The position numbers and the translations under genes are program-made. Positions 11,791 through 33,375 of a stretch of 34,717 nt of DNA are shown piece by piece. The notes beneath the pieces are model-generated. The model saw nothing but the letters and a program-made list of their open reading frames with translations, ran no database searches and was not told the origin of the DNA. The DNA is from a virus. The stretch spans positions 1-34,717 of IMG/VR virus record IMGVR_UViG_3300010392_002350, one strand, 5' to 3'. Numbering within the stretch: the first letter of the stretch is position 1; each line of letters starts with the position of its first letter.

Positions 11791-13200
11791 ATGCAGGATT
11801 TAGCAACAGAACGGGCATTACTTTGTGGATTAGTACAAAATGGGAAAGAGGCATATGTTGATATTCAAGATGTGATTGGGCCTAATTCTTTTACAGAAAC
11901 TCAGAATGCTATTATTTTTAGTTGCTTAGCAACGATGTATGAAGGCAGTTATTCATACGACCTTCCATCATTTTTAAGTGCTGCCGGTTCTCTTGGACAT
12001 AGTGAAGCCATGAAAGAGCCAAAGCAATTAGAATACTTAAAAAGTCTGACCCAGATGAAGGTCGGACTGGACAACGTAAGAAAACATGCTGTCAAACTTT
12101 CAAAGATTGCAGTGATTAATCAGTTGCAAGAAGCATCACGTCAAACATACCGCGACCTTTCTAATCTTAATGGTAATGAATCACTGGAACATATCTTAGC
12201 AGAGGCCGAAAAATCCATCTTTGGCGTTACTATGGATATGCAGACACAGGATGGTAATGGTGTAGAATTTCTTGGCGAAGGTATTCTAGATTATGTCCAA
12301 TGGTTGAGAGACAATAAATGTGATTTTATCGGTGTTCCCTCGCCATATGCAACTTGGAATACTGTTACCGGGGGAGGCTTTAGACGCGGAAAGGTATCAT
12401 TATTCGGTGCCAGACCAAAAGTTGGTAAAACGACAGTCGGTAAGGATATTGGACTCTATGTATCAGACAAGGGTATTCCTGTTTTGTATCTAGATACTGA
12501 GATGGACAGCAAAGACCTTAAGAACAAAGTTTTATCCTGCCTTACAGACATTCCTACCAAAGAAATTGAGACTGGCCAATTCGACAATGTTGAATGGAAA
12601 GTAAACAAGGTTATCGCTGCTGGAGAATATTTTTCAAATTCTAAGTTTGCATATCGTAATATTGCTGGCTATGCATTTGATGATATCATGTCTATCGTTC
12701 GCAGGTGGATTTTTCAACATGTTGGATTTGATGAGAATGGTAATACGAATGACTGTTTAATCATTTACGATTACTTCAAACTACAAGAAGCTGACAAGTT
12801 AAAAGAGATGCAAGAGACTCAGGCTCTTGGTTTTCAAGTAGCCGATATGACAAACTTTGCTATTCAATATGATGTTCCGTTTGCTGCTTTCGTGCAGTTA
12901 AACAGAAGTGCGGAAGATATTGCACAATCAGACAGACTGCTGTGGCTTTGTGCCTCATTTACGAAAATCAGCCGTAAGACAAATGAGGAAATTCTTGAGG
13001 ATGGTCCATCCAATGGTAATATCAAATTCACTCCACTCGAAGCCCGCTTTGGTCCAGCAATGAGAGATGATGACTATATCAATATTCATGTTAATTATGA
13101 GACATCGTCAGTAAGAGAATTAGGACCGAAGAGTTCTATTGAGCGGGAGTATGAAGATGGAAAAATTGGCGACGAAGAAGACGAAGACTTCGAAGATTGA
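11791..13200 (+). CDS. DnaB-type replicative DNA helicase
   Basis: A 469-residue hexameric RecA-fold helicase of the DnaB family. The N-terminal domain (residues 1 to about 150) starts like DnaB proteins (DLATERALLCGLVQNG). Walker A is at 206-214 (GARPKVGKT), Walker B near CLIIYDYFKLQ, and the sensor region AAFVQLNRSAED follows. The C-terminus is an acidic tail (EDGKIGDEEDEDFED) whose last 44 bases also encode the primase N-terminus in another frame. It unwinds the fork ahead of the phage polymerase. Strong AGGAGG site upstream. Confidence 0.93.
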   Translation: MQDLATERALLCGLVQNGKEAYVDIQDVIGPNSFTETQNAIIFSCLATMYEGSYSYDLPSFLSAAGSLGHSEAMKEPKQLEYLKSLTQMKVGLDNVRKHAVKLSKIAVINQLQEASRQTYRDLSNLNGNESLEHILAEAEKSIFGVTMDMQTQDGNGVEFLGEGILDYVQWLRDNKCDFIGVPSPYATWNTVTGGGFRRGKVSLFGARPKVGKTTVGKDIGLYVSDKGIPVLYLDTEMDSKDLKNKVLSCLTDIPTKEIETGQFDNVEWKVNKVIAAGEYFSNSKFAYRNIAGYAFDDIMSIVRRWIFQHVGFDENGNTNDCLIIYDYFKLQEADKLKEMQETQALGFQVADMTNFAIQYDVPFAAFVQLNRSAEDIAQSDRLLWLCASFTKISRKTNEEILEDGPSNGNIKFTPLEARFGPAMRDDDYINIHVNYETSSVRELGPKSSIEREYEDGKIGDEEDEDFED

Positions 13201-14281
13201 TTTAGTAGATTTAACTGAAAAACTTGTAGATAATCTGGAAATTGTCATGAATGCACTTGGCATTCCAGACTATAATAATTATGGCAGGCGAATCACTTTT
13301 CCTTGCCCAATCCACTGTGGTGACAACCCAGAAGGATGCTGTATTTTTACTGACGGTGAAGAAAAAGTCGGTAACTGGGTATGTTGGACTAACAACTGTC
13401 ATGAATGTAATGACAGCCTGTTAGAGTTTATCAGACTCAATTTAAGCAACGGAAAAGAAGCTACATTCAGTGAAGCTATTTCTTGGTCTCTAAAAGTGTT
13501 ATCTTGCGACATAGAGACATTAGCAGATGTTAAATCAAATGATTTCATCAAACTAAATCGTAAAATGGCCACAAAGACCGTTGAACTGAAGGGGACACAC
13601 AGTCGGGAACATATCAGAAAATATCTTGACATTCCTGCACAGTATTATCTTGAAAAAGAAAACGGCTTTCTTCCACAAACTCTAGATAGATATGACGTAG
13701 GGCTATGTCGTGTCCCAAGAAACAAGATGTATCTCCGCGTTGTTAGTCCAGTATATGACGATAATTACCGCTTTGTTGGCTGCTGTGGTCGCACTACACA
13801 GCCAGAATGTCCTAAGTGTGGATATTATCATTATGAGAATAGAAAGTGCCCAGAGAACAACCTAGAGCGTCTATGGGGCCAAAAATGGCTGAATAGTACC
13901 GGCGAATTTGCTGGTAATACATTCTACAACTCTTGGTTTGCTGTTCCACATGTTATTCGTAACGGTGTAGCAATTCTCGTAGAGGGATGTGGAGATATCT
14001 GGAGGTTGGAAGAGGCAGATATCAAAATTGGTCTTGGTATGTTTACAACTAGGACCAGTGAAGGACAGGATATCATACTCAAACGGCTCCCAATTTCCAA
14101 TCTAATTATTGCTACTGATGGCGACGATGCTGGAAAAGAAGGTAGAGATATTTTAATCAATAAATATGAAAGATACTGCAATATTTATCCGGTTGAGTTA
14201 AGCGGCGATATTGCTGATATGGATGTTGAAGAGACAAAAGACACGTTTTATCCAATTTTAAACAGGCTAGGAGTAAAATGA
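13157..14281 (+). CDS. DnaG-type DNA primase
   Basis: A 374-residue primase. An N-terminal zinc-binding domain has C50/H53 (FPCPIHCGDN) and cysteines 76, 81 and 84 (WVCWTNNCHEC). The TOPRIM domain has E276 (VEGCGD) and D321/D323 (ATDGDDAGKEG), the acidic residues that hold catalytic metals. A second cysteine set (CPKCGYYH, RKCPEN) sits in the middle, between the two domains. The start is taken at ATG 13157, seven bases after GGGAG; ATG 13151 and TTG 13139 are poorer. It overlaps the helicase gene by 44 bases, so the two are co-translated primosome partners. Confidence 0.9.
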   Translation: MEKLATKKTKTSKIDLVDLTEKLVDNLEIVMNALGIPDYNNYGRRITFPCPIHCGDNPEGCCIFTDGEEKVGNWVCWTNNCHECNDSLLEFIRLNLSNGKEATFSEAISWSLKVLSCDIETLADVKSNDFIKLNRKMATKTVELKGTHSREHIRKYLDIPAQYYLEKENGFLPQTLDRYDVGLCRVPRNKMYLRVVSPVYDDNYRFVGCCGRTTQPECPKCGYYHYENRKCPENNLERLWGQKWLNSTGEFAGNTFYNSWFAVPHVIRNGVAILVEGCGDIWRLEEADIKIGLGMFTTRTSEGQDIILKRLPISNLIIATDGDDAGKEGRDILINKYERYCNIYPVELSGDIADMDVEETKDTFYPILNRLGVK

Positions 14282-16274: not shown

Positions 16275-16690
16275 TGTACGCGTATGAATTAAGTGTTTAT
16301 ACAGAACTATTTGATTTTGATAATAGCCATGTATTAGGTAAGTTCTATTATTTAGGACCGGACGAAATGCTGCATCCATTAGGTGATGCAATCAAAAAAT
16401 ATATGCAACCGCCTGTGTGCGGCATGTTAGTGTACACAGAAACCAGTAATGTAAAGCCATTTTTTAATGAGCGTCCAGTAATGTCTGTTGGATTAGCACA
16501 ATATGGCACTGCAGAATTAGAGCTTAATTTTGATGCAGAAGCAGGAAATGATTTATTTTTCGATAGAGAGACGTCATTATTAACATTAGACCGTCATCCT
16601 GCAAACGTGCAGGCAATTGGCAGAGTAATTGAAAAACTGGATGGCAATACATACAAAATCGAAATCAATATGGATAAAATCTGGAGATAA
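16274..16690 (+). CDS. Hypothetical protein, 138 aa, before polymerase gene
   Basis: Not recognised. Mixed alpha/beta, mildly acidic; contains FYYLGPDEML and a C-terminal beta-rich part (TYKIEINMDKIWR). TAATG overlap of one base with the nuclease gene and one base from the start of the polymerase gene, so it lies within the replication operon. No metal-binding or nucleotide-binding motif can be seen. Confidence 0.7.
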   Translation: MYAYELSVYTELFDFDNSHVLGKFYYLGPDEMLHPLGDAIKKYMQPPVCGMLVYTETSNVKPFFNERPVMSVGLAQYGTAELELNFDAEAGNDLFFDRETSLLTLDRHPANVQAIGRVIEKLDGNTYKIEINMDKIWR

Positions 16691-16691
16691 A

Positions 16692-18332
16692 ATGCATCTT
16701 ATCAAAAACAGGACACACTACGCAAATGATACTGATAGTGTAATCACATCATACACTAAACCAGAAAAACTGGTTGATTTTGCAAAAGAAAAAGGGTACT
16801 CGGTCTGTGGGATGTGTGACTATGGTAGTATCTCTGGTGCAATTAAGTTTATTGATGAATGTAAGAAGAAAGATATTAAACCTGTTGTATCATGTGAGAT
16901 GACATTGGCAGGGCACAGAGCCATGTTTATCGCTATGAATACTGAAGGATGGTACAGTCTTATTAAGCTGAACTCATCATTCAGGGAGGCTGGTGATATC
17001 AGTTTGGCTGTATATCGAGCATACTCGGACAATGTCACTGTTGTAATGTCCCCTCAATCTGCTGTAGACGAAGACATGCTCCAACTGATTAAGGATAATG
17101 CTTATATTGAGGTTCCAGTTGACCAGTCCCCAGCGACTGATTTACTTAAACCTCTTACAGTTTTTGACTCAAGATATGTGTATGACGATGATTTGGATGA
17201 CTATAAAATCCTACTGGCAGCAAAAAATGGAGTAAAATTCAAAAATGTCGAGATTGTGCATGATTATTGTCTCGAAAAAAACTATAATAAGATTGACCCG
17301 TATGAAAACAACTGGGACGAGTTGATTAATCGTATTGGTGAATACAACGTTCTGAATAAGCCACAGCTACCAAAATTCTGTGAAGGTAGCGAGCTTGAAA
17401 CTCTTACAGAGATGTGTCGTGAAGGCTGGAAAAAGAAGATTCAAGATAAGATTCCACAGTATAAACACAAAGAATATGCTGATAGAATCAAAATGGAGCT
17501 TGCTGTTATCGAGGAAGCTAATCTATCTGGTTACTTTCTAATCGTGCAAGACTTCGTCAACTACTGTAAGGACAGAAAAATTCTTATCGGCCCAGCACGT
17601 GGTTCCGCTGGTGGATGCTTAATTTCTTTCTTGCTAAATATTACCAGTATCGACCCTATCAAGTATGACCTTCTATTCAGCCGGTTCTACAACAAAGGAC
17701 GTAATACTGGCGACCACGTTGAATATCCAGATATCGATATTGATTTTCCCGTTAACCATCGTAAAACTGTTATCGAGTATATCCGTAACAAGTATGGACA
17801 TGAGCGTGTAGCACAAGTTATTACATTCGGCTCATTAAGCGGTAAGGGTGCTCTCAAAGAGGTTCTTAAAGCACACGCTGTTCTAGATAATAAACTCATC
17901 GACGAAATCACAGCCAAGCTGCCACAAGATGCAGAAATCGCTGATAAGATGGAAGACGATGGATATAGCTCAATCATTGAATGGACTCTAGATAAAGAGC
18001 CGGATTTGATGGCTGAGTGGTGCCAAAAAAATAGCAATGGTGACTACACTGGTGAATTATCAAGGTACTTCAGACAGGCTGCAAGAATCGAGGGGACATA
18101 TAAGTCAACAGGTAAACATGCCGCTGGATTAGTAATTGGTCACACTAACTTACATGACGTATATCCCATGTGTAAGGAAAAGGGTGGTCATGAATATATT
18201 GTAGCATTGGAAATGAATGACCTTGCGAAAGCTGGCGGGGTTAAGTTCGATATTCTAGGTCTGGCGGCTTTAGATAAGCTAATGCTGGTTAACGAAATGT
18301 TAAGATATGGTATTGTAACGAGAGAAATTTAA
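16692..18332 (+). CDS. DNA polymerase III alpha subunit, N-terminal part (PHP + palm)
   Basis: First part of a C-family replicative polymerase, 546 residues. PHP-like domain at about 1-70 (HLIKNRTHYAND, then VCGMCDYGSISG), with usual metal-binding histidines replaced (TDHG becomes CDYG). The palm carries GPARGSAGG (300-308), the catalytic aspartates D349 and D351 (YPDIDIDF), and the third aspartate D520 (VKFDILGL). The protein stops 26 residues after that, where full-length DnaE continues into the fingers. The missing part is encoded at 20296-21966. No intein motif is seen at the end. The start at 16692 has GGAG five bases upstream; an upstream ATG lies inside the previous gene. Confidence 0.93.
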   Translation: MHLIKNRTHYANDTDSVITSYTKPEKLVDFAKEKGYSVCGMCDYGSISGAIKFIDECKKKDIKPVVSCEMTLAGHRAMFIAMNTEGWYSLIKLNSSFREAGDISLAVYRAYSDNVTVVMSPQSAVDEDMLQLIKDNAYIEVPVDQSPATDLLKPLTVFDSRYVYDDDLDDYKILLAAKNGVKFKNVEIVHDYCLEKNYNKIDPYENNWDELINRIGEYNVLNKPQLPKFCEGSELETLTEMCREGWKKKIQDKIPQYKHKEYADRIKMELAVIEEANLSGYFLIVQDFVNYCKDRKILIGPARGSAGGCLISFLLNITSIDPIKYDLLFSRFYNKGRNTGDHVEYPDIDIDFPVNHRKTVIEYIRNKYGHERVAQVITFGSLSGKGALKEVLKAHAVLDNKLIDEITAKLPQDAEIADKMEDDGYSSIIEWTLDKEPDLMAEWCQKNSNGDYTGELSRYFRQAARIEGTYKSTGKHAAGLVIGHTNLHDVYPMCKEKGGHEYIVALEMNDLAKAGGVKFDILGLAALDKLMLVNEMLRYGIVTREI

Positions 18333-18568
18333 TGAATGAATTACTATTTATTATGCTAAAAGATGGATATAGTGTCGATTACGGTACTCTGTCAATTTGT
18401 GGCCTTAAAGGAATGCACCCGAAGTGGCAGGTTGTATGTGAAAATTATAGATATCCACAATCTATGTTGTATCCATACACAGATGATGGGCTTAAATCTG
18501 CTATTCGAGACTTCATGAATATTAAACGTGGTATGGAAAAAGATGGAACTAAACATTCTAAGAAGTGA
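18332..18568 (+). CDS. Small hypothetical protein between polymerase halves, 78 aa
   Basis: Not recognised. A 78-residue basic protein beginning with a hydrophobic stretch (NELLFIMLKDG) that is too short and charged to be a confident membrane segment, and containing KWQVVCENYRYPQS. TAATG overlap of one base with the polymerase N-part; its 3' end overlaps the UDG-fold gene by 26 bases. Its position makes it the first of four genes separating the polymerase halves. Confidence 0.66.
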   Translation: MNELLFIMLKDGYSVDYGTLSICGLKGMHPKWQVVCENYRYPQSMLYPYTDDGLKSAIRDFMNIKRGMEKDGTKHSKK

Positions 18569-19103
18569 GATTACGAAGTGTGATTTTTGTGATTTACGCA
18601 AAAATATAAAAGATGAAACACCGCTGCCATCAAAAGGTAGTGGTAAAATCATGTTTGTTACGTCGGCCCCCCAGTTTGAGAACCTGTCATTGGGCCAGCA
18701 CTTTTCTATTAACGAACAACGGTATTTCGACCTTATTCTTAAAGCATGCAAGATAGATAGTAACGATATCTATCTTACCAGCATCACAAAATGCTCGTAC
18801 AATAAGGATAACAAAAAAACTCTTACGTGTAAAGACCTTTGTGCAACAAAATTCTTATTACGTGAGATTCAATTGGTTGAACCAAAGTTAATTGTATGTA
18901 TCGGAAAAGTTCCGGCATGTCATTTTCTGCAGATACCGTTTAGTAGATTGAAATTAGCAGACGTTGTTAACAGAACTTATGACTGTGATGGGATAAAGGT
19001 AATTCCCGTCTACAACATGTCTTACCTCATTCAAAATGGTAAAAAAATGACGCAAGACGTGATTGACTGCATAAAGGAAACCAATGGGATTTGCGAAAGA
19101 TAG
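18543..19103 (+). CDS. Family-4 uracil-DNA glycosylase-fold protein with degenerate active site
   Basis: A 186-residue protein with the layout of iron-sulfur (family 4) UDGs. The four cluster cysteines are present: C13-x2-C16 (CDFCDL) and C84-x15-C100. The strand order KIMFVTSAP, NDIYLTSITKC, PKLIVCIGK and KVIPVYNMSYL matches the family. The catalytic motifs do not: the usual GEAPG/GEGPG reads TSAPQ, and the HPS loop reads NMS. Uracil excision therefore is doubtful; a structural or DNA-binding role near the polymerase is more likely. The start at ATG 18543 after GGAAAAAG is preferred over GTG 18528. Confidence 0.8.
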   Translation: MELNILRSEITKCDFCDLRKNIKDETPLPSKGSGKIMFVTSAPQFENLSLGQHFSINEQRYFDLILKACKIDSNDIYLTSITKCSYNKDNKKTLTCKDLCATKFLLREIQLVEPKLIVCIGKVPACHFLQIPFSRLKLADVVNRTYDCDGIKVIPVYNMSYLIQNGKKMTQDVIDCIKETNGICER

Positions 19104-19578
19104 AGTACGGGGCCTTCGTGGTGAAAAACTAGTTGCTAGAACACTAGAGAATGATGGCATCACATGTGAAATCAACGAAGATAATGAAACTAATATCTAT
19201 TACGATATTGAATGTAAAATGGGTCGGGTAAAATTTACTGTTGAGGTAAAAAGTGACTACATGGCCGAGAGGACTGGTAATCTTGCTATTGAATATTACA
19301 ACTCAAAACAAGGTAAGCCCAGTGGAATCACAGTTACCAAAGCAGATTTATGGGTACACTGTATTAAGGATGGGGATAATTTGACTGTATGGGCAACTTC
19401 TGTTGATACGCTAAAAGCGTTTATTGATGCAGAAGAGCCAATCAAAAAAGTGGAATTTGGTGGGGATAACAATGCTTCACTTCTGCTCTACAATGAGCAT
19501 CATATTCTAGAAATTTTTGAGAGATTAGACAACTTACAGGAAAAACAGATTAAGAAAGCAATTAAGAGGCTGTTATGA
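19084..19578 (+). CDS. PD-(D/E)XK nuclease-like protein within polymerase cluster
   Basis: A 164-residue protein with the PD-(D/E)XK core: E14 (RGEKLVARTL), D41 (YYDIECKMG) and E54-x-K56 (TVEVKSDY), followed by GNLAIEY and KPSGITVTKADLWVH, which resemble phage Holliday-junction-resolvase-like or repair nucleases. The rest is a C-terminal helix. It overlaps the UDG-fold gene by 20 bases (ATG after AAGGAAA) and the exonuclease gene by ATGA. Likely a branched-DNA or repair nuclease; substrate cannot be stated. Confidence 0.76.
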   Translation: MGFAKDRVRGLRGEKLVARTLENDGITCEINEDNETNIYYDIECKMGRVKFTVEVKSDYMAERTGNLAIEYYNSKQGKPSGITVTKADLWVHCIKDGDNLTVWATSVDTLKAFIDAEEPIKKVEFGGDNNASLLLYNEHHILEIFERLDNLQEKQIKKAIKRLL

Positions 19579-20312
19579 AAAACAACGACATTATTTTTTA
19601 CGACTTTGAAACGACAAGTGCTAATCCACGTACATGCCAACCTATCCAGTTGGCTGCTGTCGCAATTGACGGTTTTAGACTGGAAGTAAAAGAAGATAGT
19701 GTATTTCAAAGTTTGATTCGTCCAGAGTTTGACTTAGAGGTGTGCGAGAAGTATAATTTAGACCCACTAACCGAAGAATCTATTGCTATTCACGGAAAAA
19801 CAGAAGAAATGTTACGTGATGCACCACCAGCTAAGGTTGTATGGAGTCAGTTTGTAGAATACACAAACGTGTATAATTACAACGGAAATATGTGGGGACG
19901 ACCAATTGCTGCAGGTCAAAATATTCAGACTTATGATTCTGTGATTTGCGAACGTTTGGCAAAGTCAGAACCATATAAGTTCGGTCCAGTTGATGAGAAA
20001 ACTGGGGAACTGGCATTATTCCAAGTGCGTGACAGATTTGACATGCTGGATGACCTCAGTCGCTGGATGAAGTTTGATAAAAACCAACGGTCTTATTCGA
20101 TGGATAATTTAAGACCTCTGCTTGGTATTGACGCAACAAACTCACACGATGCGTTAAAAGACGTGTTAGACGGTGCATTTATGTTGTGTAAATTCATGAA
20201 ACTATACAAGAAGTTTTCGTCTCAATTTAGTTTTAAAGATTCATTCAAGAAAACAAACACAAACGAACAAATCAGCAGAATTTTAGAGAACTATTATGCA
20301 CAATCAAAATGA
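19575..20312 (+). CDS. DEDDh 3'-5' exonuclease (DnaQ-like, proofreading candidate)
   Basis: A 245-residue exonuclease with the four acidic residues and histidine of the DEDDh group: D10-x-E12 (YDFETT), D121 (NIQTYDSV), H191 and D196 (SHDALKD). It resembles E. coli DnaQ and exonuclease X in order and spacing. Because it lies between the two halves of the polymerase III alpha subunit, and the polymerase PHP domain lacks metal ligands, it is the obvious proofreading subunit. It has no clamp-binding motif that I can see. Overlaps: ATGA upstream, 17 bases with the C-terminal polymerase part downstream. Confidence 0.9.
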   Translation: MKNNDIIFYDFETTSANPRTCQPIQLAAVAIDGFRLEVKEDSVFQSLIRPEFDLEVCEKYNLDPLTEESIAIHGKTEEMLRDAPPAKVVWSQFVEYTNVYNYNGNMWGRPIAAGQNIQTYDSVICERLAKSEPYKFGPVDEKTGELALFQVRDRFDMLDDLSRWMKFDKNQRSYSMDNLRPLLGIDATNSHDALKDVLDGAFMLCKFMKLYKKFSSQFSFKDSFKKTNTNEQISRILENYYAQSK

Positions 20313-21966
20313 TTTTTACCACTTCGATTGCGGATGCCAATTCCAAATCTTCGATGATGGCGAGATTAAAGAATGTGATGGTTTACCACCATTAGAAATT
20401 GATTATGAGAATATCCCGCGTGATTGTCAGATTACGTGGGATATTTATCAATCAGGTCATACAAAAGGAGTATTCCAGCTAGAAAACTCATTAGGACAAC
20501 ATTGGGCTAAAGAGACTGTTGCTTCTTCAATCGAGGACGCTGCTGCATTGATTAGTATTATCCGCCCCGGTTGTTTGAGAAGTAAGATTAACGATGTATC
20601 AATGACCGAATTATACGCGGCAAGAAAAAAGGGTGAGCACATCGACCCAGAGACAATCATCAAACCTCTTGCACCCATGTTATCTAGCACCTTCTTCATT
20701 CTATGTTATCAAGAGCAATCTATGCGTATTGCTATGGATATTGCTGGTTATTCGGAAGAAGAAGCTGATATCTTACGTAAGGCTATTGGTAAGAAGGATG
20801 CTAAACTGATGGCATCTTTGAGAAGTAGTTTTCTAGAGGGCTGTAAGAAGATGGGTCTTGTTACACTTGAGGAAGCTGCTGAGATTTTCGGTTGGATTAG
20901 AGAGAGCCAAAGATACTCATTCAATAAGTCTCACGGTGCTGGATATGGTGATTTAGGATATTGGACTGCTTATGCTAAGGCCCATTTTCCTTTGCATTTC
21001 TTCGCATCATGGATTAATTTTGCACCAGAAAAAATGAAACCTAAGTTTGAGGTGCGTGACCTGCTGTTTGATTGCCAGTTGTTTGACATCCCTGTTTATC
21101 CACCATCTATTCTGGAAATTTACGGTGGTAACACGTCATTCCAAAATGGTAGAGTTCGACTTGGATTGAAACATGTTAGCAACATTGGATATAAGGCTAT
21201 CCACAAGTTAACAAAAACAATCCAGCAAATCGAAATTGATATCGATAAACATGTTAACGATTGGACATGGTACGACTTTCTTATATTCTGTTCCAATGAA
21301 GTTTCTACGACTGTAATCAATAATATGATTGACGTTGGTGCTTTGGACCATATGGGGCTTTCACGTAAAAAAATGGTGAACGAATACAATATATGGGGTC
21401 CTAAGAGCGGCAAAAAGCCACACCTGACTAAAGTTGAGAAAGATTTTTTGAGAAAAAATCGAGAAACTCACCCAAGTCTACTTGAAGGGCTGAAGCTATT
21501 GTGTTATACTAATACCACTGCAGATAGAGTTTCTACCCCCGCCAGAGTTGATATTGTAGCCGGATTCTTGGAACAGTTACAGAGTCCAGCATATAGTATG
21601 CACGATGACGCCACTATTATTGCCAAACGGGAAAGTCATTTGATTGGGAAGTCAATCTCTATCCATAATACTGAGACTTGCTCTATGGCAACAAATACTA
21701 CATGTCGTGAATTCAACGAAGGTAAGAACGGATACATGACCCTTGTTGCAGAAGTCGGATTCGTTAAAGAGTATCCGGGTCGTGGACAAAACAAAGGTAG
21801 AACCATGTGTGCAATGTCACTTGAAGATAAAACTGGTAGGATTAATGCTATGTGTTTCTTTGACCAATACGATGAGTTTGGTGAAGAGTTTATCGAAGGT
21901 AATCTAGTAACTGTGAAGATTACTAGAAGTAAGGATAACAAAGCGATAATAGATAAGGTATTTTAA
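20296..21966 (+). CDS. DNA polymerase III alpha subunit, C-terminal part (fingers, clamp-binding region, OB)
   Basis: Second part of the split C-family polymerase, 556 residues. After a unique start (HFDCGCQFQIFDDG) the sequence joins the fingers region: TKGVFQLEN, ALISIIRPG, LCYQEQSMRIA, ILRKAIGKKDA, and FNKSHGAGYGDLGYW, all standard fingers motifs of DnaE. After the tandem HhH-like region a C-terminal OB fold (TLVAEVGFVKEYPG, MSLEDKTGRINAMCF) closes the protein. Together with the part at 16692-18332 it makes 1102 residues, near the full length of DnaE. The ATG at 20296 has only a weak site, so translation may depend on the preceding exonuclease (17-base overlap). Confidence 0.93.
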   Translation: MHNQNDFYHFDCGCQFQIFDDGEIKECDGLPPLEIDYENIPRDCQITWDIYQSGHTKGVFQLENSLGQHWAKETVASSIEDAAALISIIRPGCLRSKINDVSMTELYAARKKGEHIDPETIIKPLAPMLSSTFFILCYQEQSMRIAMDIAGYSEEEADILRKAIGKKDAKLMASLRSSFLEGCKKMGLVTLEEAAEIFGWIRESQRYSFNKSHGAGYGDLGYWTAYAKAHFPLHFFASWINFAPEKMKPKFEVRDLLFDCQLFDIPVYPPSILEIYGGNTSFQNGRVRLGLKHVSNIGYKAIHKLTKTIQQIEIDIDKHVNDWTWYDFLIFCSNEVSTTVINNMIDVGALDHMGLSRKKMVNEYNIWGPKSGKKPHLTKVEKDFLRKNRETHPSLLEGLKLLCYTNTTADRVSTPARVDIVAGFLEQLQSPAYSMHDDATIIAKRESHLIGKSISIHNTETCSMATNTTCREFNEGKNGYMTLVAEVGFVKEYPGRGQNKGRTMCAMSLEDKTGRINAMCFFDQYDEFGEEFIEGNLVTVKITRSKDNKAIIDKVF

Positions 21967-22232
21967 TGTTTATTTTATATGCAATAACTACACTAATTAC
22001 TCTAAGTCTATCACTAATGCTTGCTAGAGATGTAGATGAATGCTTTGGTAGAGACTACAGGACTGAATTCTATGCTATCATTGGGATGTTATTTATTACA
22101 GGCCCATTCGCCTATGGATTGTTATTAGCCACAGCTTTACTATTTATCCCCGGATATTTGATATACTGTATTGGCGTAGTTTTTTACAGACTTTGTACAG
22201 GTTATTATAAAAAGAAAGAGGAAAATTCGTGA
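21966..22232 (+). CDS. Small membrane protein, 88 aa
   Basis: An 88-residue protein with two or three hydrophobic segments: residues 2-20 (FILYAITTLITLSLSLML) and a hydrophobic run from about 40 to 75 that could span the membrane twice (GMLFITGPFAYGLLLA, then FIPGYLIYCIGVVFY), ending in a basic and acidic tail (KKKEENS). No signal-peptide cleavage site. It overlaps the polymerase gene by one base (TAATG) and the following GT gene by GTGA. Possibly a superinfection-exclusion or membrane-anchoring protein, but that is speculation. Confidence 0.7.
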   Translation: MFILYAITTLITLSLSLMLARDVDECFGRDYRTEFYAIIGMLFITGPFAYGLLLATALLFIPGYLIYCIGVVFYRLCTGYYKKKEENS

Positions 22233-23872
22233 AAACGAGAGTATTATTTGTAAATGAATTTTCGACACATAGCTCTGGTTATGCAAAATACGGTATGGAA
22301 GTCTTAAAGCGTCTATCTGTAAAAAATGACCTAGAAGTAGCTGAGCTTGCATGCTACGGTTCTGAATTCAAAAAAGAAGATGTGTTGGAAGCACAGAAAT
22401 TGCCTTGGACAGTATACTTCAACGTTCCAAATATGAATAACCCGGAACATGTGAAACAATACAAGTCTGCTAAAGAATTTGAGTATGGATTATTCAAGTT
22501 TAATGATGCTTTGTTACACTTTAAGCCCCATATCGTTATGGACATTCGTGACTTCTGGATGCAGTCTTATCAAGAGCGGTCGCCATTTCGTGACATGTTC
22601 AACTGGGTTATTATGACCACAGTTGATGCTAAGCCTCAACACGAGCAATGGATTTACACATTCTGTAATGCAGATGGTGTTTTTACATATACAGATTGGG
22701 GAATGGATGTTCTGAGGGAGCAGGCTGGAGATAATATCAATCTTTTAGGTTCTGCAAGTCCAGCAGCAGAAGCATGTTATAAACATGTAAATAAGAATGT
22801 GGCAAAAGAAAAAGTTGGTATCAGCACAGACACAAAAATTATCGGTACTGTAATGCGTAATCAGGGACGTAAGCTATTTCCAGATTTGTTTCAAGCATTC
22901 AGAAAATACCTTGATGATACTGGACGTACAGATACATATCTCTACTGCCATACAGCTTATCCTGATGTAGCTTGGGACATCCCAGAACTACTAAAACGTT
23001 ACGAGATTGCGAGTCGAACACTTTTCACATACAAATGTGTTAACTGTAAGCATACTTATCCATCATTCTATCAAGGAATCGGGACCGCCTGTCCTAAGTG
23101 TCACCAGCTATCTGCCCGTATGCCACGTGTTGAGGACGGTGTAACAGATGAACAACTTGCAGGTATTATGCAGACATTTGATTTGTATGTACAGCATGTA
23201 ACTAATGAAGGATTCGGTATGCCTGTAGTAGAAGCAGGACAGTGTGGCGTCCCAGTTGTAGCTGTTGGTTATTCCAGTTTGGAGGATGTAACGCCTAAAG
23301 TTGGCGGGGTCACTATCCCACCGCTTGCTTTACAAACAGAACCGCAAACAGGTAGATTAAGAGCTGTGCCTGACAATGATGGTTTGGTAGAATACATGAA
23401 GGATTTCTTTTCTCTGCCATTACCAAACAGAATGATTAAGTCTAGAGATGCTGTTTTACAAACAAGAGAGAACTATAGTTGGGACGATACAGCAAACAAG
23501 TGGTATGACTACTTTAAAACTGTCGATGTTTCACAATATGAACAAAAGTGGCAATCGCCTCTACGTGTCAAGAAACCTGCTCCATATACTGAGCAACAAG
23601 ACATGATGACAAACATGCAGTTTTGCGAATGGTTGATTAAATACGTTTTATGTGACGAACGTCAAATGCATAGTTATCTACATATGCGATTACTACGTGA
23701 CATTAACAACGGTTTCACATTAACTTACGGTAACAATCCATCATACTTTTCTGAAGATAGTGTTGCTGATGGACGTCCGAATGTGACTGATTTCTCTCGC
23801 AAAAAGGCTTACCAAGAAATATTAAACATATGTACGGAGTTTAACCTATGGGAACAAAAAAGATGCAAATAA
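22229..23872 (+). CDS. GT-B glycosyltransferase (GT4-like) with inserted zinc ribbon, 547 aa
   Basis: A glycosyltransferase of the GT-B type. The N-terminal Rossmann half begins VLFVNEFSTHSSGYAKYG; the C-terminal half has the E-x7-E catalytic region E327/E335 (EGFGMPVVEAGQCGVPV) typical of GT4 enzymes. Unusually, between the two halves a C-x2-C / C-x2-C zinc ribbon is inserted at 270-291 (CVNC, then CPKC). After the GT core it carries an extra, helical C-terminal region of about 150 residues. The GTG start with AGAGG seven bases upstream overlaps the previous gene by four bases. The sugar donor and target are unknown. Confidence 0.84.
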   Translation: MKTRVLFVNEFSTHSSGYAKYGMEVLKRLSVKNDLEVAELACYGSEFKKEDVLEAQKLPWTVYFNVPNMNNPEHVKQYKSAKEFEYGLFKFNDALLHFKPHIVMDIRDFWMQSYQERSPFRDMFNWVIMTTVDAKPQHEQWIYTFCNADGVFTYTDWGMDVLREQAGDNINLLGSASPAAEACYKHVNKNVAKEKVGISTDTKIIGTVMRNQGRKLFPDLFQAFRKYLDDTGRTDTYLYCHTAYPDVAWDIPELLKRYEIASRTLFTYKCVNCKHTYPSFYQGIGTACPKCHQLSARMPRVEDGVTDEQLAGIMQTFDLYVQHVTNEGFGMPVVEAGQCGVPVVAVGYSSLEDVTPKVGGVTIPPLALQTEPQTGRLRAVPDNDGLVEYMKDFFSLPLPNRMIKSRDAVLQTRENYSWDDTANKWYDYFKTVDVSQYEQKWQSPLRVKKPAPYTEQQDMMTNMQFCEWLIKYVLCDERQMHSYLHMRLLRDINNGFTLTYGNNPSYFSEDSVADGRPNVTDFSRKKAYQEILNICTEFNLWEQKRCK

Positions 23873-24171
23873 TTAATGTGGCAGACGCGATGTCAGACTG
23901 GTGTTACACATACATTGATGAATATGATGTGTTCTTCACATATTATATTAATGATTGTTATGAAGGGTATGGACAGGCTATCGGTATTAATAAGGATGGT
24001 ACATGTCATGTGTATAATCTTGGTCATTGTTCGTGTTATGGACCGTTAGAGGGGTCTCCTGATGTAACCACTTTGGACGCGTTGTTAAATTCAGAACATG
24101 TATTGTCTGTAGAAATTGAGTACCCAGAACTAAAAGATGCTATTGTAGAATGGCGGAAAAAGAATGGATAA
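23848..24171 (+). CDS. Hypothetical acidic protein, 107 aa
   Basis: Not recognised by function. Tyrosine- and aspartate-rich, with a compact central region (VYNLGHCSCYGPLEG) that could bind a metal through its Cys/His cluster. Overlaps the preceding glycosyltransferase gene by 25 bases (GGAG eight bases before the ATG) and the next one by 8. Its place between two glycosyltransferases may be incidental. Confidence 0.65.
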   Translation: MGTKKMQIINVADAMSDWCYTYIDEYDVFFTYYINDCYEGYGQAIGINKDGTCHVYNLGHCSCYGPLEGSPDVTTLDALLNSEHVLSVEIEYPELKDAIVEWRKKNG

Positions 24172-25315
24172 AATGAAAGTATTATTTATTGGGCATTATC
24201 GAGAGCAGTCTGGGTGGGGAAGAGCAGCATGTGAGTACATTCTAGCTTTAGACGAAGTTGGAGTCGATGTTGTATGCCGTGCTGTCAAGCTGAATGATAT
24301 CCAAGCTGAAATTCCAGAACGTATTAAAGAGCTGGAAAATAAATCTACTGACGGTGCTGAAATCTGCATTCAATGTCTACTTCCCCATCAGTTGCATTAT
24401 AATGGAAATTTTAAACGCAATATCTGTATCCCTTTTATTGATACTATCGAGCTAGACAGACATCCGTGGATTTCTCAGATGGAGAATTTTGAAATCTGGT
24501 CTCCGTGTGTGTCTCTTGATGCTGCAATAGAGGATATTAAGGAATATGAGGATGAAAGCTGTCGTGAGATTAATCGTGCAGCTATCGTCCCTGTCCCATG
24601 TGACCCTTCTAAATACTTATCTACACAAACCCCTTTGGATATCGGTGTTGATTTATCAGGAAAATTTATTTTCTACAGTATTTTCGACTTGACTCCTAGA
24701 AAAAATATGCTAGGATTACTAAAGGCGTTCCATACTGCTTTCGAGCCGTGGGAAGATGTTGCTTTAATTATCAAGACAGGTAAATTTGGTAAGCCTGCAG
24801 ATGAAGTTCGTTCTGTTTGCATCGATATGAATAAAAAGATTTGTCAAAGTCTCAAATTGTACCCAGAAGGGGAATATAATAATCCAATTTTCATTACTGA
24901 GCAATTAACTGACGAACAGATAGAACAATTGCACGTACTTGGAGATTGTTTTGTATTGCCAACTTTTGGAGAGGCGTGGTGCTTCCCAGCATTTGATGCA
25001 ATGGGATATGGTAATAAGCCTATTGTTACTAAAAATACTTCATGTGATGACTATATTACTGACACAACAGGGACATTATGTAAATCAGTCCCACAGCCAG
25101 TAAGTGGCATGACAGACACATTTAGTGAGATTTTTAATGGTCATGAAATATGGCATGAGCCAAGTATTATAGATTTCGCTAGAAGTATGAGAGGTATGTA
25201 TGAAGATAGATATGTTCCAATTCCTAAGAACAATCCTCAAAATGGCTATGAACGGACAATGGACTTCTCGCGTACAGTAGTTGGAAATAAAATGAAAGAG
25301 TTACTGAATGTATAA
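24164..25315 (+). CDS. GT-B glycosyltransferase (GT4-like), 383 aa
   Basis: A GT4-type glycosyltransferase: Rossmann start KVLFIGHYREQSGWGRAACE, FYSIFDLTPRKNM (start of the donor-binding half), and the motif TFGEAWCFPAFDAMGYGNKPIV with E-x7-type acidic residues. It lacks a signal peptide or membrane segment, so it probably acts in the cytoplasm. An internal ATG at 24173 would make MKVLFIGHY; the start at 24164 is kept because GGAAAAAGA precedes it. Second of three GT-B genes in tandem, all differing in length and sequence, so they are not recent duplicates. Confidence 0.86.
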   Translation: MDKMKVLFIGHYREQSGWGRAACEYILALDEVGVDVVCRAVKLNDIQAEIPERIKELENKSTDGAEICIQCLLPHQLHYNGNFKRNICIPFIDTIELDRHPWISQMENFEIWSPCVSLDAAIEDIKEYEDESCREINRAAIVPVPCDPSKYLSTQTPLDIGVDLSGKFIFYSIFDLTPRKNMLGLLKAFHTAFEPWEDVALIIKTGKFGKPADEVRSVCIDMNKKICQSLKLYPEGEYNNPIFITEQLTDEQIEQLHVLGDCFVLPTFGEAWCFPAFDAMGYGNKPIVTKNTSCDDYITDTTGTLCKSVPQPVSGMTDTFSEIFNGHEIWHEPSIIDFARSMRGMYEDRYVPIPKNNPQNGYERTMDFSRTVVGNKMKELLNV

Positions 25316-26303
25316 TCAAGCTGCAACTATTACACATAGAGCAACCAACACAGGCAAATTGAATATCTTGTGTATGGATACACATGAGCGGTATCAATCC
25401 AATTTGGCAAAAACTGGTCACAACTTCTATTCTTTCCATGTTGAAAATCAAAAACAATGGAATACTGTCTATGGAGATGTCCCAGATAATTATCATAGGA
25501 TACTAAATCCAAAAGGTAATTCTGTACATGGTGGAGTTTTCTTCGACCTTATCTTGTCGCAGAACAAGTTTGGTCAATTCCAAATTCTATCCCAGATTGC
25601 GAAACAGACTGGTGCCCCACTCGTAAGTATTGAACATACCTTACCTTATGAAACTTGGTCTACACAAAAACGTGCATATGCTATGGCTATGCGTGGTGAT
25701 TACAATGTGTATCTGTCTGAGTTTAGCAAGAAAAAATGGGGAGGCCGGGGTGACATTATCCATAACGCTGTTGACACCGACCTTTTTTCTCCTGCTGATA
25801 TTAAGAAAGAGCCATATGCTCTATCTATCGTGAACGAATGGAAGACTAGAGACTATTTCTGTGGCTACAACTTATGGACTGAGATTGCAAAACAGGTTCC
25901 GACACATGTACGTGGCGACAATCCGGGTTGGACAACACCTGCTGGCAGTATGGAAGAGCTGGTTGACGAATATCGTAAAGCAACCGTATTCCTAAATACG
26001 TCTTTATATTCGACATGTCCAACGACTGTACTTGAGGCTGCTTCGTGTGGAGTGCCAATTGTGACTACGGCTACTACCATGCTTCCTGAAATCATTCAGA
26101 ATGGATACAATGGTTTTATTAGTAACAATCCTGATGAGCTTGTCATGTACACACAAAGACTTCTAAATAACCCTGACTTAGCATACGAATTAGGACAGAA
26201 TGCTAGAAAGACTATGTTGGAAAAATTCAGTCTGGATAGCTTTGTTGAGAAGTGGAATGTTTTGTTTGAATCAACTAGGAGTTATGTACATAAGGGGAAA
26301 TGA
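25308..26303 (+). CDS. GT-B glycosyltransferase (GT4-like), 331 aa
   Basis: A shorter GT4-type enzyme. Features: SIEHTLPYETWS in the acceptor half, DIIHNAVDTDLFSPAD before the donor half (the classical 'N-x-V-D-x-x-x-F' of GT4), and PTTVLEAASCGVPIVTT with the catalytic-site E, followed by a typical C-terminal NGFISNNPDELVMY. Overlaps the previous gene by 8 bases and the following one by ATGA. Sugar and acceptor unknown. Its similarity to bacterial polysaccharide enzymes is from motif recognition only. Confidence 0.87.
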   Translation: MYNQAATITHRATNTGKLNILCMDTHERYQSNLAKTGHNFYSFHVENQKQWNTVYGDVPDNYHRILNPKGNSVHGGVFFDLILSQNKFGQFQILSQIAKQTGAPLVSIEHTLPYETWSTQKRAYAMAMRGDYNVYLSEFSKKKWGGRGDIIHNAVDTDLFSPADIKKEPYALSIVNEWKTRDYFCGYNLWTEIAKQVPTHVRGDNPGWTTPAGSMEELVDEYRKATVFLNTSLYSTCPTTVLEAASCGVPIVTTATTMLPEIIQNGYNGFISNNPDELVMYTQRLLNNPDLAYELGQNARKTMLEKFSLDSFVEKWNVLFESTRSYVHKGK

Positions 26304-30494: not shown

Positions 30495-31301
30495 ATGATA
30501 AACCACGACCTATTACCAAAAATTGAAGATAATCCAGACGCAAAACCAAGCACGTCATGTAAAAAATGTGTGTTCAGTATCCAAGATAGCAATACGCAAA
30601 TTGGATGTAGATACGATAATCGTATTAGTAAGTTCATGGACAAAGAAGATGTTGATGTGTATTCATTGACAGAAGATGGTCAAACATTCTGTGTTCTGAC
30701 GACTATGTGTACAGCTTGTACGCAAAAGGTCCCAGATGGGGAAGATGATGTAAATTTTGTACGTGGGCATCTCCAAAAACAGTTAAATCTGATTATTGAA
30801 ATGACATCAGAAACATCTGAGAAAGAGTTGGTTCATACATACGAAACCGCCATTAATCAACAAATACCACCAGAGAGAATTGTTATTTCATATTGCAATC
30901 GCAACAGTATGAATCCACAAGATGTGTTCATGGCATTGTCTCAATCATCACTTGAAAGAAAAGGAATTCGTTTTGTTATTGTACAAAGTATTAATGGGAC
31001 TTCTTTTGACGAGCATATGCTCGCATGTGTTAATAAGTGTACCAGCCCCTATTTTACGACATTCATTGCAGGAGAGACAATTCCATACAATCTTGGAGAG
31101 ACAGTAGACCAATTGGTAAACTACCAACTTGCTCAATTTATCGCAATTAAAGCTCCAAAGTCTTCTGGTAATGTATGTTTAACTAAGCTGTTCAAAAAAG
31201 CAATGAGAGTTAATCGAGTAGAAGACGGTAAATATGACTATTACAAAGCATTAAATATGCTGACAGGATATAAGGATGGGGTATTACAGTGGAACGTATG
31301 A
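30495..31301 (+). CDS. Cys-rich N-terminal protein with GT-A-like C-terminal part, 268 aa
   Basis: The N-terminal 80 residues carry six cysteines: C22/C25 (CKKCVF), C38 (GCRYDN), C66, C72 and C75 (CTAC), possibly binding zinc or an iron-sulfur cluster. The C-terminal part (VISYCNRNSMNPQD, then MLACVNKCTSPYFTTFIAGET) is arranged like a reduced GT2-type fold lacking a clear DxD. The protein likely assists or belongs to the glycan pathway, with a GT2 gene overlapping it by 13 bases. First gene after the 102-base gap and has an AAGGAAAG site. Function not established. Confidence 0.7.
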   Translation: MINHDLLPKIEDNPDAKPSTSCKKCVFSIQDSNTQIGCRYDNRISKFMDKEDVDVYSLTEDGQTFCVLTTMCTACTQKVPDGEDDVNFVRGHLQKQLNLIIEMTSETSEKELVHTYETAINQQIPPERIVISYCNRNSMNPQDVFMALSQSSLERKGIRFVIVQSINGTSFDEHMLACVNKCTSPYFTTFIAGETIPYNLGETVDQLVNYQLAQFIAIKAPKSSGNVCLTKLFKKAMRVNRVEDGKYDYYKALNMLTGYKDGVLQWNV

Positions 31302-32044
31302 AATCGGTCGGAGTGATTATTCCTTGTCATAATTATGGCAACTATATTGGTGGAGCATTAAAAAGTGTACTTGACCAAGATTATATTGGTGATATTCATA
31401 CAATCGTTGTAAATGATGGCTCAAAGGATAACACATTTGAAGTTGTTGATTTGTATAAGCCGTGTTTTGAAGATAACAGAACACTTGATTACTATGAGCT
31501 GCCAAATCCAACTGGACCAAGTAATGCACGTAATGTCGCGTTGAATGCTTTATTCCAACAATATGATGTGGACTTAATAGCATTTTTGGATGCAGATGAT
31601 AAAATGACTAATGACAAGTTAAGCAGACTTGTCCCTGTTTTTGATGATGGTGCAATCGGGTCAGTCTACGCGGACTATTATCATGTTTATTCGGATGGAA
31701 CGTATGCTATTGAATTGAAAGAGATTTTTGACAGAGAAAGGTTTATTGTCGAAAATATCGGGCCAAATAATACAAGTTTAGTAACTAAAGAGGCTTTACT
31801 AGCAATTCAGGATTCATATGGATTCTTCGACCCATCTTTGAGAACATGCGAAGACTATGACCTGTTCTTACGAATTTCAGAAAAGTACCCTATCAAGCAT
31901 GTAGCTGAGCCTCTGACTTATATTCGTGTACATGATAACAATTCTACAAATACAGTCAATAAGAAAATCTGGCAAGCAAATCGCATGCGTGTAAATCAAA
32001 AGATAAAGGAGAGAATGGATGAGCGACTTAATCAACATCAATGA
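31289..32044 (+). CDS. GT2 family glycosyltransferase
   Basis: A 251-residue GT-A fold glycosyltransferase: SVGVIIPCHNYGNYIGGAL at the start, IVVNDGSKDNT, SNARNVAL, and the metal-binding FLDADDK with D101/D103. ACEDYDLFLR-like ED motif appears as TCEDYDLFLRISE. A complete inverting GT2 core, soluble, no membrane segment. Start GTG 31289 preceded by GGATGGGG; an internal ATG at 31298 is an alternative. Overlaps the GT25-like gene by 26 bases. Confidence 0.9.
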   Translation: MERMKSVGVIIPCHNYGNYIGGALKSVLDQDYIGDIHTIVVNDGSKDNTFEVVDLYKPCFEDNRTLDYYELPNPTGPSNARNVALNALFQQYDVDLIAFLDADDKMTNDKLSRLVPVFDDGAIGSVYADYYHVYSDGTYAIELKEIFDRERFIVENIGPNNTSLVTKEALLAIQDSYGFFDPSLRTCEDYDLFLRISEKYPIKHVAEPLTYIRVHDNNSTNTVNKKIWQANRMRVNQKIKERMDERLNQHQ

Positions 32045-32675
32045 TGTCTTTCCTAACAAGCTGTGTATTAGCTTAGAATCCAGACAAGATAGAAGAGATG
32101 CTACAACTGCAGAACTTGGGAAATATGGAATCGATTTTGAATTCTACGATGCTAAACCTCCAATTTCTGACAGAGTCAGAGAAATTTATAACACCAGACT
32201 CCTACCCGGAGAAACTGGTGCCTTTGAATCACATTACGATGCTTTAAATAAAGCAGAAATGTTGGAATGGGAGTCTGTTTTAATTCTAGAAGATGACGTA
32301 GAGTTAACCCCAAATTTCGATGTAAAATTTGATGAAGCCATTCGCAAAGTCCCTGACAACTGGGACATGATTTATTTTGGTGGCAACCATGAATCAGAAC
32401 CGCAAGTTCTGGGAAATGGTTTGCTGAAATGCACAGAAACATACGCGATTCATATGGTTGCAATACGAAACACTGTATATGAAATGCTCAAAATCACCTG
32501 TCAAATGAATCAATATGCCTTTCCGGTGGACTTTCTGTACGCCACGATTCATTGCCATAGGAACGTGTATGCTTTTTCTCCTGCATTAGCTTTCCAGCGT
32601 ATCGACTATTCAGATATCCAAGGAGAGGTAGTAGATTATACTATTTTAAGAAAGGGGCACAATGCCGAGAAGTGA
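32019..32675 (+). CDS. GT25-like (LPS-type) glycosyltransferase
   Basis: A 218-residue protein resembling GT25 enzymes: CISLESRQDRRDATTAEL at the start (the 'I-x-L-x-x-x-x-D-R-R' pattern), GAFESHYDAL with the G-x-x-x-S-H signature, and LILEDDVEL with E91/D92/D93. These are sugar transferases of LPS or collagen-type glycans. AAGGAGAG lies eight bases upstream. Substrate unknown. Placed between a GT2 gene and a nucleotidyltransferase-like gene. Confidence 0.85.
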   Translation: MSDLININDVFPNKLCISLESRQDRRDATTAELGKYGIDFEFYDAKPPISDRVREIYNTRLLPGETGAFESHYDALNKAEMLEWESVLILEDDVELTPNFDVKFDEAIRKVPDNWDMIYFGGNHESEPQVLGNGLLKCTETYAIHMVAIRNTVYEMLKITCQMNQYAFPVDFLYATIHCHRNVYAFSPALAFQRIDYSDIQGEVVDYTILRKGHNAEK

Positions 32676-33375
32676 CAATGGTTGCAGACCAGCAAGAAAA
32701 AAAGAGGTGCCCTCAGATATCACAGTAGTTTTACTAGCAGGTAATCCCGGATGGCGTATGAAGTCTTATGGGCCACAATGTTTACAGAAGTTATCTACGG
32801 GGCAAACTCTATTAGACAAACAGGTAAGCAGTATTCGTGCTGTTTTACCTGAATCTGAAATTATCATCACATGCAAAGATTATCTCACAAAGATACTGAA
32901 CAATAAGCCATATGACGTTCGTGTCGTACAGTCACAGATTGAAGACTCGAATGAGGTTGAAGAAATACGGCTCGCGTTGAATAATACAATAACTGACAAT
33001 GTATTATTTGTATGCAGTGACATGTACTTTGACCGTAATATATTTAATAGTGTTGATTTCAATGAATCTTTTGTTCTATATGAAACTAACAATATGATGG
33101 CCAGCGACTCTGTTGGTGTAACTATTGTCAACGGTAAGGCCAGTATCATGTCTTATGGCATCGATAATAAGTGGGCAAGAATCTTTTACGTAAATCAACG
33201 TGGAAAAGTATCACTAAATCATTATTGTAAGAACGAACAGAATCAAAAAATGTTTGCTTGGGAAGCTGTAAACTACGTTGTAGATAAATCATCAGTATTT
33301 GCCTATAGAACTGACTCTAATTTATACTGTGTTGAAAACACAAATGACATAAGAAAATTGAAGGGAATGAAATAA
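32662..33375 (+). CDS. Sugar-phosphate nucleotidyltransferase-like protein with altered active-site motif
   Basis: A 237-residue protein with the fold signature of MobA/GlmU-type nucleotidyltransferases: VVLLAGNPGWRMKSYGPQCLQKL. The usual G-G-x-G-x-R-M...P-K is partly changed: GNPGWRM keeps the second Gly and Arg-Met, but the P-K lysine is Gln (GPQ). The metal motif is SDMYFD. It may be a divergent but active enzyme making a nucleotide sugar for the neighbouring GTs, or an inactive relative. The first 18 residues are basic and probably disordered. Overlaps the GT25 gene by 14 bases and ends TAATG into the next. Confidence 0.72.
   Translation: MPRSDNGCRPARKKEVPSDITVVLLAGNPGWRMKSYGPQCLQKLSTGQTLLDKQVSSIRAVLPESEIIITCKDYLTKILNNKPYDVRVVQSQIEDSNEVEEIRLALNNTITDNVLFVCSDMYFDRNIFNSVDFNESFVLYETNNMMASDSVGVTIVNGKASIMSYGIDNKWARIFYVNQRGKVSLNHYCKNEQNQKMFAWEAVNYVVDKSSVFAYRTDSNLYCVENTNDIRKLKGMK

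Follow-up and report, generated by a model that had tools for sequence, protein, structure and literature searches.

How can a phage build a replicative DNA polymerase when the palm and the fingers of its catalytic subunit are encoded by different genes? This question is raised by a 34,717-nucleotide stretch of viral DNA (IMG/VR record IMGVR_UViG_3300010392_002350, called the window here in its full length), in which DNA polymerase III (Pol III) alpha, or DnaE, is present as two separate open reading frames (ORFs) that lie 1.96 kb from each other and enclose four overlapping genes, all in one direction. A preliminary description had interpreted the locus as a genuine two-chain polymerase devoid of an intein, an interpretation strongly supported by the conservation across a large phage clade that we report here. 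We consider it very likely that the two genes encode halves of one C-family (DnaE) replicase working as a non-covalent complex.

Two genes encode complementary parts of DnaE

The gene for the N chain (16692..18332, + strand; 546 amino acids) begins with ATG, an upstream TTG at 16629 being a possible alternative start, and its product comprises PHP, palm and thumb, with Pfam matches to PHP (E 7e-15) and DNA_pol3_alpha (E 8e-71). The gene for the C chain (20296..21966, + strand; 556 amino acids) encodes fingers, helix-hairpin-helix (HhH) and OB fold; DNA_pol3_finger (E 1e-33) and HHH_6 were matched, and the OB fold, which stays below its Pfam cut-off, was aligned in a profile search and is visible as strands in an AlphaFold2 model. 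Combined, the two chains make up the complete DnaE set of PHP, palm, fingers, HhH and OB. Neither half reaches the cut-offs of the full-length NCBIfam DnaE models, and no C-terminal tau-binding domain was detected in the split polymerase. The AlphaFold2 model of the N chain (predicted local distance difference test, pLDDT, 86; predicted template modelling score, pTM, 0.86) has T. aquaticus Pol III alpha as its best match in the PDB (E 5.5e-34), and that of the C chain (pLDDT 87, pTM 0.81) a DNA polymerase of M. tuberculosis (E 1e-21). Each chain by itself is thus confidently predicted to adopt a fold that matches its own portion of Pol III alpha.

On Thermus aquaticus alpha the N-chain profile aligns to residues 6-637 and the C-chain profile begins at 638, which places the break in the linker right after the last palm helix; on E. 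coli alpha, the C-chain profile aligns from residue 583. This boundary bears out the palm/fingers break of the preliminary description, which had also correctly placed the end of the N chain 26 residues past D520. All three catalytic aspartates (D347, D349 and D520) belong to the N chain; they are invariant in 36 sequences. The C chain carries the helix with LRKAIGKK and the invariant motifs YQEQ (138-141), likewise in a helix, and RYSFNKSH (206-213), the latter with H213 in NKSH. The three aspartates and H213 are unchanged even though the relatives are only 31-43% identical to the window.

In the proposed complex, the N chain would supply PHP, palm, thumb and the three metal-binding aspartates, and the C chain the fingers, HhH and OB. 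As the break separates the last helix of the palm from the first of the fingers, each chain would form one side of the nucleotide-binding cleft. Given that the metal ligands belong to one chain and the nucleotide-contacting fingers motif to the other, polymerisation should require both, and we infer an N:C heterodimer.

The head of the window C chain (20296-20430), like most C-chain heads of the clade described below, bears an extension with a CGC motif and, immediately ahead of the fingers, a third Cys. Among 109 C-chain heads, 70 have CGC together with the third Cys, 13 the third Cys alone and 26 neither; CGC without the third Cys occurs in no case (70/70 paired), although the p-value of this association is inflated by the relatedness of the sequences. 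As a speculation, this extension, located exactly at the chain break, may bind a metal or stabilise the junction.

The preliminary description had counted four genes between the halves, in agreement with the separate ORFs and the overlaps measured here: from the N-chain through the C-chain gene, successive genes overlap by 1, 26, 20, 4 and 17 bases, where the start of the second intervening gene was set at ATG 18543. Such overlapping or closely spaced co-directional genes would help the products to be made in equal amounts and to assemble during translation. The last of the four (19575..20312, + strand) encodes an epsilon/DnaQ-like DEDDh 3'-5' exonuclease (PF00929, E 1e-14) that matches phrog_192, annotated as 'DNA polymerase exonuclease subunit'. 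Its residues D10, E12, D121, H191 and D196 (DEDDh) are invariant in 29 sequences. The protein misses the NCBIfam dnaQ cut-off, and its nearest solved structure by sequence is a PolC-type exonuclease (2p1j, E 1e-12). The PHP domain is where epsilon attaches to E. coli alpha (PMC3642679), and synteny and homology suggest that the window exonuclease is an epsilon-like proofreader that probably binds the PHP domain in the same manner. In this exonuclease family we also noted a conserved C-terminal motif, K-F-K-x-S/A-F, with F224 invariant, which is a candidate polymerase- or clamp-binding tail.

The layout is conserved in a large phage clade

Searches of the collections with single proteins returned nothing beyond the phage itself and two unsplit, distant relatives, which made a motif scan necessary. 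We scanned IMG/VR for RYSFNKSH, a query blind to splitting that was chosen because this sequence of the C chain takes the place of GYGFNKSH in the E. coli enzyme. At least 120 further loci were obtained and classified by six-frame analysis with hidden Markov models. Among the matches listed, to which all locus counts given here refer, N and C halves are separate ORFs in 89 loci and palm and fingers share one ORF in 6; another 25 reach the ends of the locus or have one half absent. Hence 89 of the 95 resolvable loci are split, at the same palm/fingers boundary, so that both the same split in related phage genomes and an unsplit homologue, for which the preliminary description had proposed to search, do occur. 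The scan of a genome collection yielded only two contigs of metagenome-assembled genomes, from Flavobacteriales and Alphaproteobacteria bins (putative hosts), both split. Together with the window, these make 92 split members, and in 92/92 an ORF homologous to the window exonuclease sits between the halves. In most cases the open frames are separated by 630-900 bp, which corresponds to the exonuclease alone, at times plus small ORFs. No isolate phage with an identity of at least 60% was found, nor did we find a description of the split clade in the open-access literature; an earlier mention by Kazlauskas and Venclovas (2011) is possible.

In a tree of N+C sequences with unsplit phage and bacterial DnaE, a quick tree with some long branches, all 55 distinct split members (55/55 after dereplication, several contigs being near-duplicates, and with the window included) form one branch (Shimodaira-Hasegawa-like approximate likelihood ratio test, SH-aLRT, 100). 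Its exact sister group is uncertain. Pairwise distances correlate between N and C chains (Spearman 0.82), N chain and exonuclease (0.71) and C chain and exonuclease (0.69), and thus give no sign that the halves were shuffled. The ancestral order of the operon would have been alpha-N, exonuclease, alpha-C, and the three extra genes of the window phage, encoding a uracil-DNA glycosylase (UDG), a nuclease-like protein and a 78-amino acid product, would have entered it later. The intervening genes had been described as a stable arrangement: this holds for the conserved exonuclease, but not for the other three genes, which are lineage-specific.

A similar break has arisen outside this clade. In the cultured Rossellomorea phage phiT1, DnaE is split between gp20 and gp18 (PV767480) at the same palm/fingers boundary as in the window, but its gap holds a 50-amino acid ORF, whereas that of the window clade holds the exonuclease. 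PhiT1 groups with the unsplit Moorella phage MTATph1, outside the split clade; therefore, it represents an independent split, and the palm/fingers boundary was cut at least twice.

Is the split enzyme the phage replicase?

The strongest competitor of a two-chain replicase is that the phage relies on the host replicase and that the split genes are relics or serve in repair, a reading which we consider improbable. In its favour, the operon contains UDG and nuclease-like genes, the window lineage is fast-evolving, and a different split phage Pol III, found together with a family-B polymerase (PolB), was suggested to act in repair or in the replication of one strand (PMC7824862). Decay, however, is hard to reconcile with catalytic residues that are invariant over a diverse clade. 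Moreover, genes encoding helicase, primase, RecA-like protein, ribonucleotide reductase (RNR) and PhoH lie upstream of the split locus; among them are a DnaB-type replicative helicase (11791..13200, + strand; PF03796 / PF00772) and a Toprim-domain protein, probably a DnaG-type primase (13139..14281, + strand; PF13662). The window corresponds to bases 65,470-100,186 (offset 65469) of a separately deposited 177,764-bp contig, IMGVR_UViG_3300006467_000563, which yielded no further polymerase of the C, A or B family; a separate intact polymerase, named in the preliminary description as evidence that would speak against it, was thus not detected in this contig. Palm and fingers each matched once per contig in 20/20 contigs, and the 11 long contigs (this one and 10 others), which may be incomplete, gave no match to an A- or B-family polymerase. 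These data point to the split enzyme as the probable phage replicase.

Several observations weigh against a two-chain replicase. The clade members are all uncultured and their contigs mostly fragments, so a polymerase could still be encoded elsewhere. No bacterial-type beta clamp (PF00712) was found in the 11 long contigs. The branch of the window lineage is long (1.61), and the correlation of distances shows common inheritance only. In addition, PHP metal-ligand positions 5 and 7, His in most relatives, are K5 and R7 in the window lineage, which would therefore need a separate proofreader.

It is very improbable that the halves are joined after synthesis into one chain by protein or RNA trans-splicing through a split intein or a split intron. 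There is precedent for such joining. Cyanobacterial dnaE consists of two genes with split intein pieces, whose products are joined by splicing at the CFN site in the fingers, and homing elements interrupt the dnaE of other phages, as do an HNH gene between the dnaE halves of KLEB27-3 and a LAGLIDADG-like ORF at PDIDID in locus L148. The window polymerase shares the two genes with the cyanobacterial system, but its break lies about 200 residues upstream of the CFN motif, away from the cyanobacterial site as the preliminary description had maintained, and no intein is present. Clade N tails end about 5-20 residues beyond the palm helix LDKIM..., and many clade C chains begin nearly at the fingers themselves, the shortest about 20 residues ahead of the TKGxFQLE motif, which leaves no room for an intein; accordingly, none was found at the N-chain tail or C-chain head of the window and 58 relatives inspected, and the intein was rejected, as already claimed for the ends of the window chains. 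The gene in the gap encodes an intact exonuclease enzyme rather than a homing element. Interruption of the window locus by an intron or homing element was also rejected; here the lack of an Rfam intron match at E<1 in the locus is a weak negative, as Rfam missed suspected introns in three other loci (L012, L017 and L148).

Other breaks in phage dnaE were observed alongside. Those of KLEB27-3 and Jayan lie at other sites and look element-driven. A second recurrent break affects the palm, within PDIDxD or immediately ahead of it (phiST, L043, L034 and L012, the last being Jayan). Cellulophaga phage phiST, named for its DnaE in PMC8008677, is broken at this site instead (L158:41632-45232), with two ORFs that overlap by 8 bases and no annotated coding sequence; the end of its N piece, YKLTLEDGSIVELPEGTVVKI..., looks intein/HINT-like. 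The PHROGs 13169, 7513 and 12219 likewise end or start near the PDIDxD break. In two loci of the split clade (L148:3237-4003 and L115), dnaE is in three pieces, in the order interrupted N-half, N2, exonuclease, C; the stretch that resembles LAGLIDADG in the interrupting ORF of L148 is WLGFIFGDGN, and no Rfam intron was detected there.

As improbable as trans-splicing is a scenario in which each half pairs with a host partner, for example with the C chain hijacking host alpha, rather than with the other half: in the split loci, the halves are close together, collinear and co-inherited. Finally, separation of one gene by misassembly or frameshifts, for which nothing speaks except the general risk of metagenomes, has a negligible probability, since four ordered, overlapping genes lie between the halves and preclude a joining frameshift, the layout is common to 92 loci, cultured phage phiT1 has the same split boundary, and the 177,764-bp contig is concordant, with 5 mismatches in 34,717 bases, all substitutions, and 0 within the split locus.

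Comparison with known polymerases

The two-chain replicase proposed here resembles unsplit DnaE (E. coli 2hnh, T. aquaticus 2hpi, M. tuberculosis 7pu7) in its PHP-palm-thumb-fingers-HhH-OB order, Asp triad and NKSH motif, but unsplit DnaE is a single polypeptide and the window polymerase two chains broken in the palm-fingers linker. A split itself is known in other jumbo phages. Group 2.2 jumbo phages possess a split minimal Pol III alpha, encoded by two genes and proposed to reassemble, which is divided into an NTP-binding part and a Mg2+/template-binding part (Iyer et al. 2021, PMC7824862). There, the genes are distant, the minimal core lacks the other Pol III domains and a family-B polymerase is present, and for a split Pol III that co-occurs with PolB the authors suggest the repair or one-strand role mentioned above (PMC7824862). 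By contrast, the window type has PHP, HhH and OB, its halves belong to the same operon and flank the exonuclease, and no PolB was found. The window clade thus differs in its set of domains, in the order of its genes and in its replicative context. As in the E. coli alpha-epsilon core and in PolC with its inserted exonuclease, the partner is of the DEDDh type; unlike in these, it is encoded between the two half-genes of the polymerase.

A more far-reaching proposal, which we regard as tentative and rather unlikely, is an obligate three-subunit replicase of alpha-N, exonuclease and alpha-C throughout a large phage clade, with an active site formed in trans and the exonuclease bridging the chains. 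Binding of the proofreader would then be a part of polymerase assembly. Cells have DnaE as a single chain, restored by splicing in cyanobacteria, whereas here palm and fingers have stayed separate proteins while a broad phage clade diversified. The clade is therefore a natural test case for whether the active site of a C-family enzyme can be assembled in trans and whether an exonuclease is involved in its assembly. It could also show whether phages gain from the split the freedom to regulate or evolve polymerase, proofreader and fingers independently of each other. Automatic annotation would list two partial polymerases for what is very probably one enzyme in phages of this clade.

Neighbouring genes

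The three further genes between the halves appear, by comparison of the loci, to be lineage-specific additions to the operon. The first (18332..18568, + strand) is a 78-amino acid ORF that belongs to no family and has a homologue between the halves only in locus L084. It is followed by the gene of a family 4-like protein of the UDG superfamily (18543..19103, + strand; PF03167, E 1.5e-16; PDB 1ui0, E 2.6e-16), which scores under the cut-off of TIGR00758; a UDG between the halves is also present in locus L044. The third gene (19084..19578, + strand) encodes a 164-amino acid protein with a weak match to NOV_C (PF13020, E 0.002, below cut-off), possibly a PD-(D/E)XK-like nuclease, that matches phrog_13596 (function unknown). 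UDG and C chain match different portions of phrog_4335, which suggests that fusions of a DnaE fragment with UDG exist in known phages. Downstream of the replication genes, at 22229-26300 and 31289-33375, the window contains several glycosyltransferase genes (GT1, GT2 and GT25 families) and a gene for a MobA-like nucleotidyltransferase; the glycosyltransferases are perhaps used for DNA or virion glycosylation.
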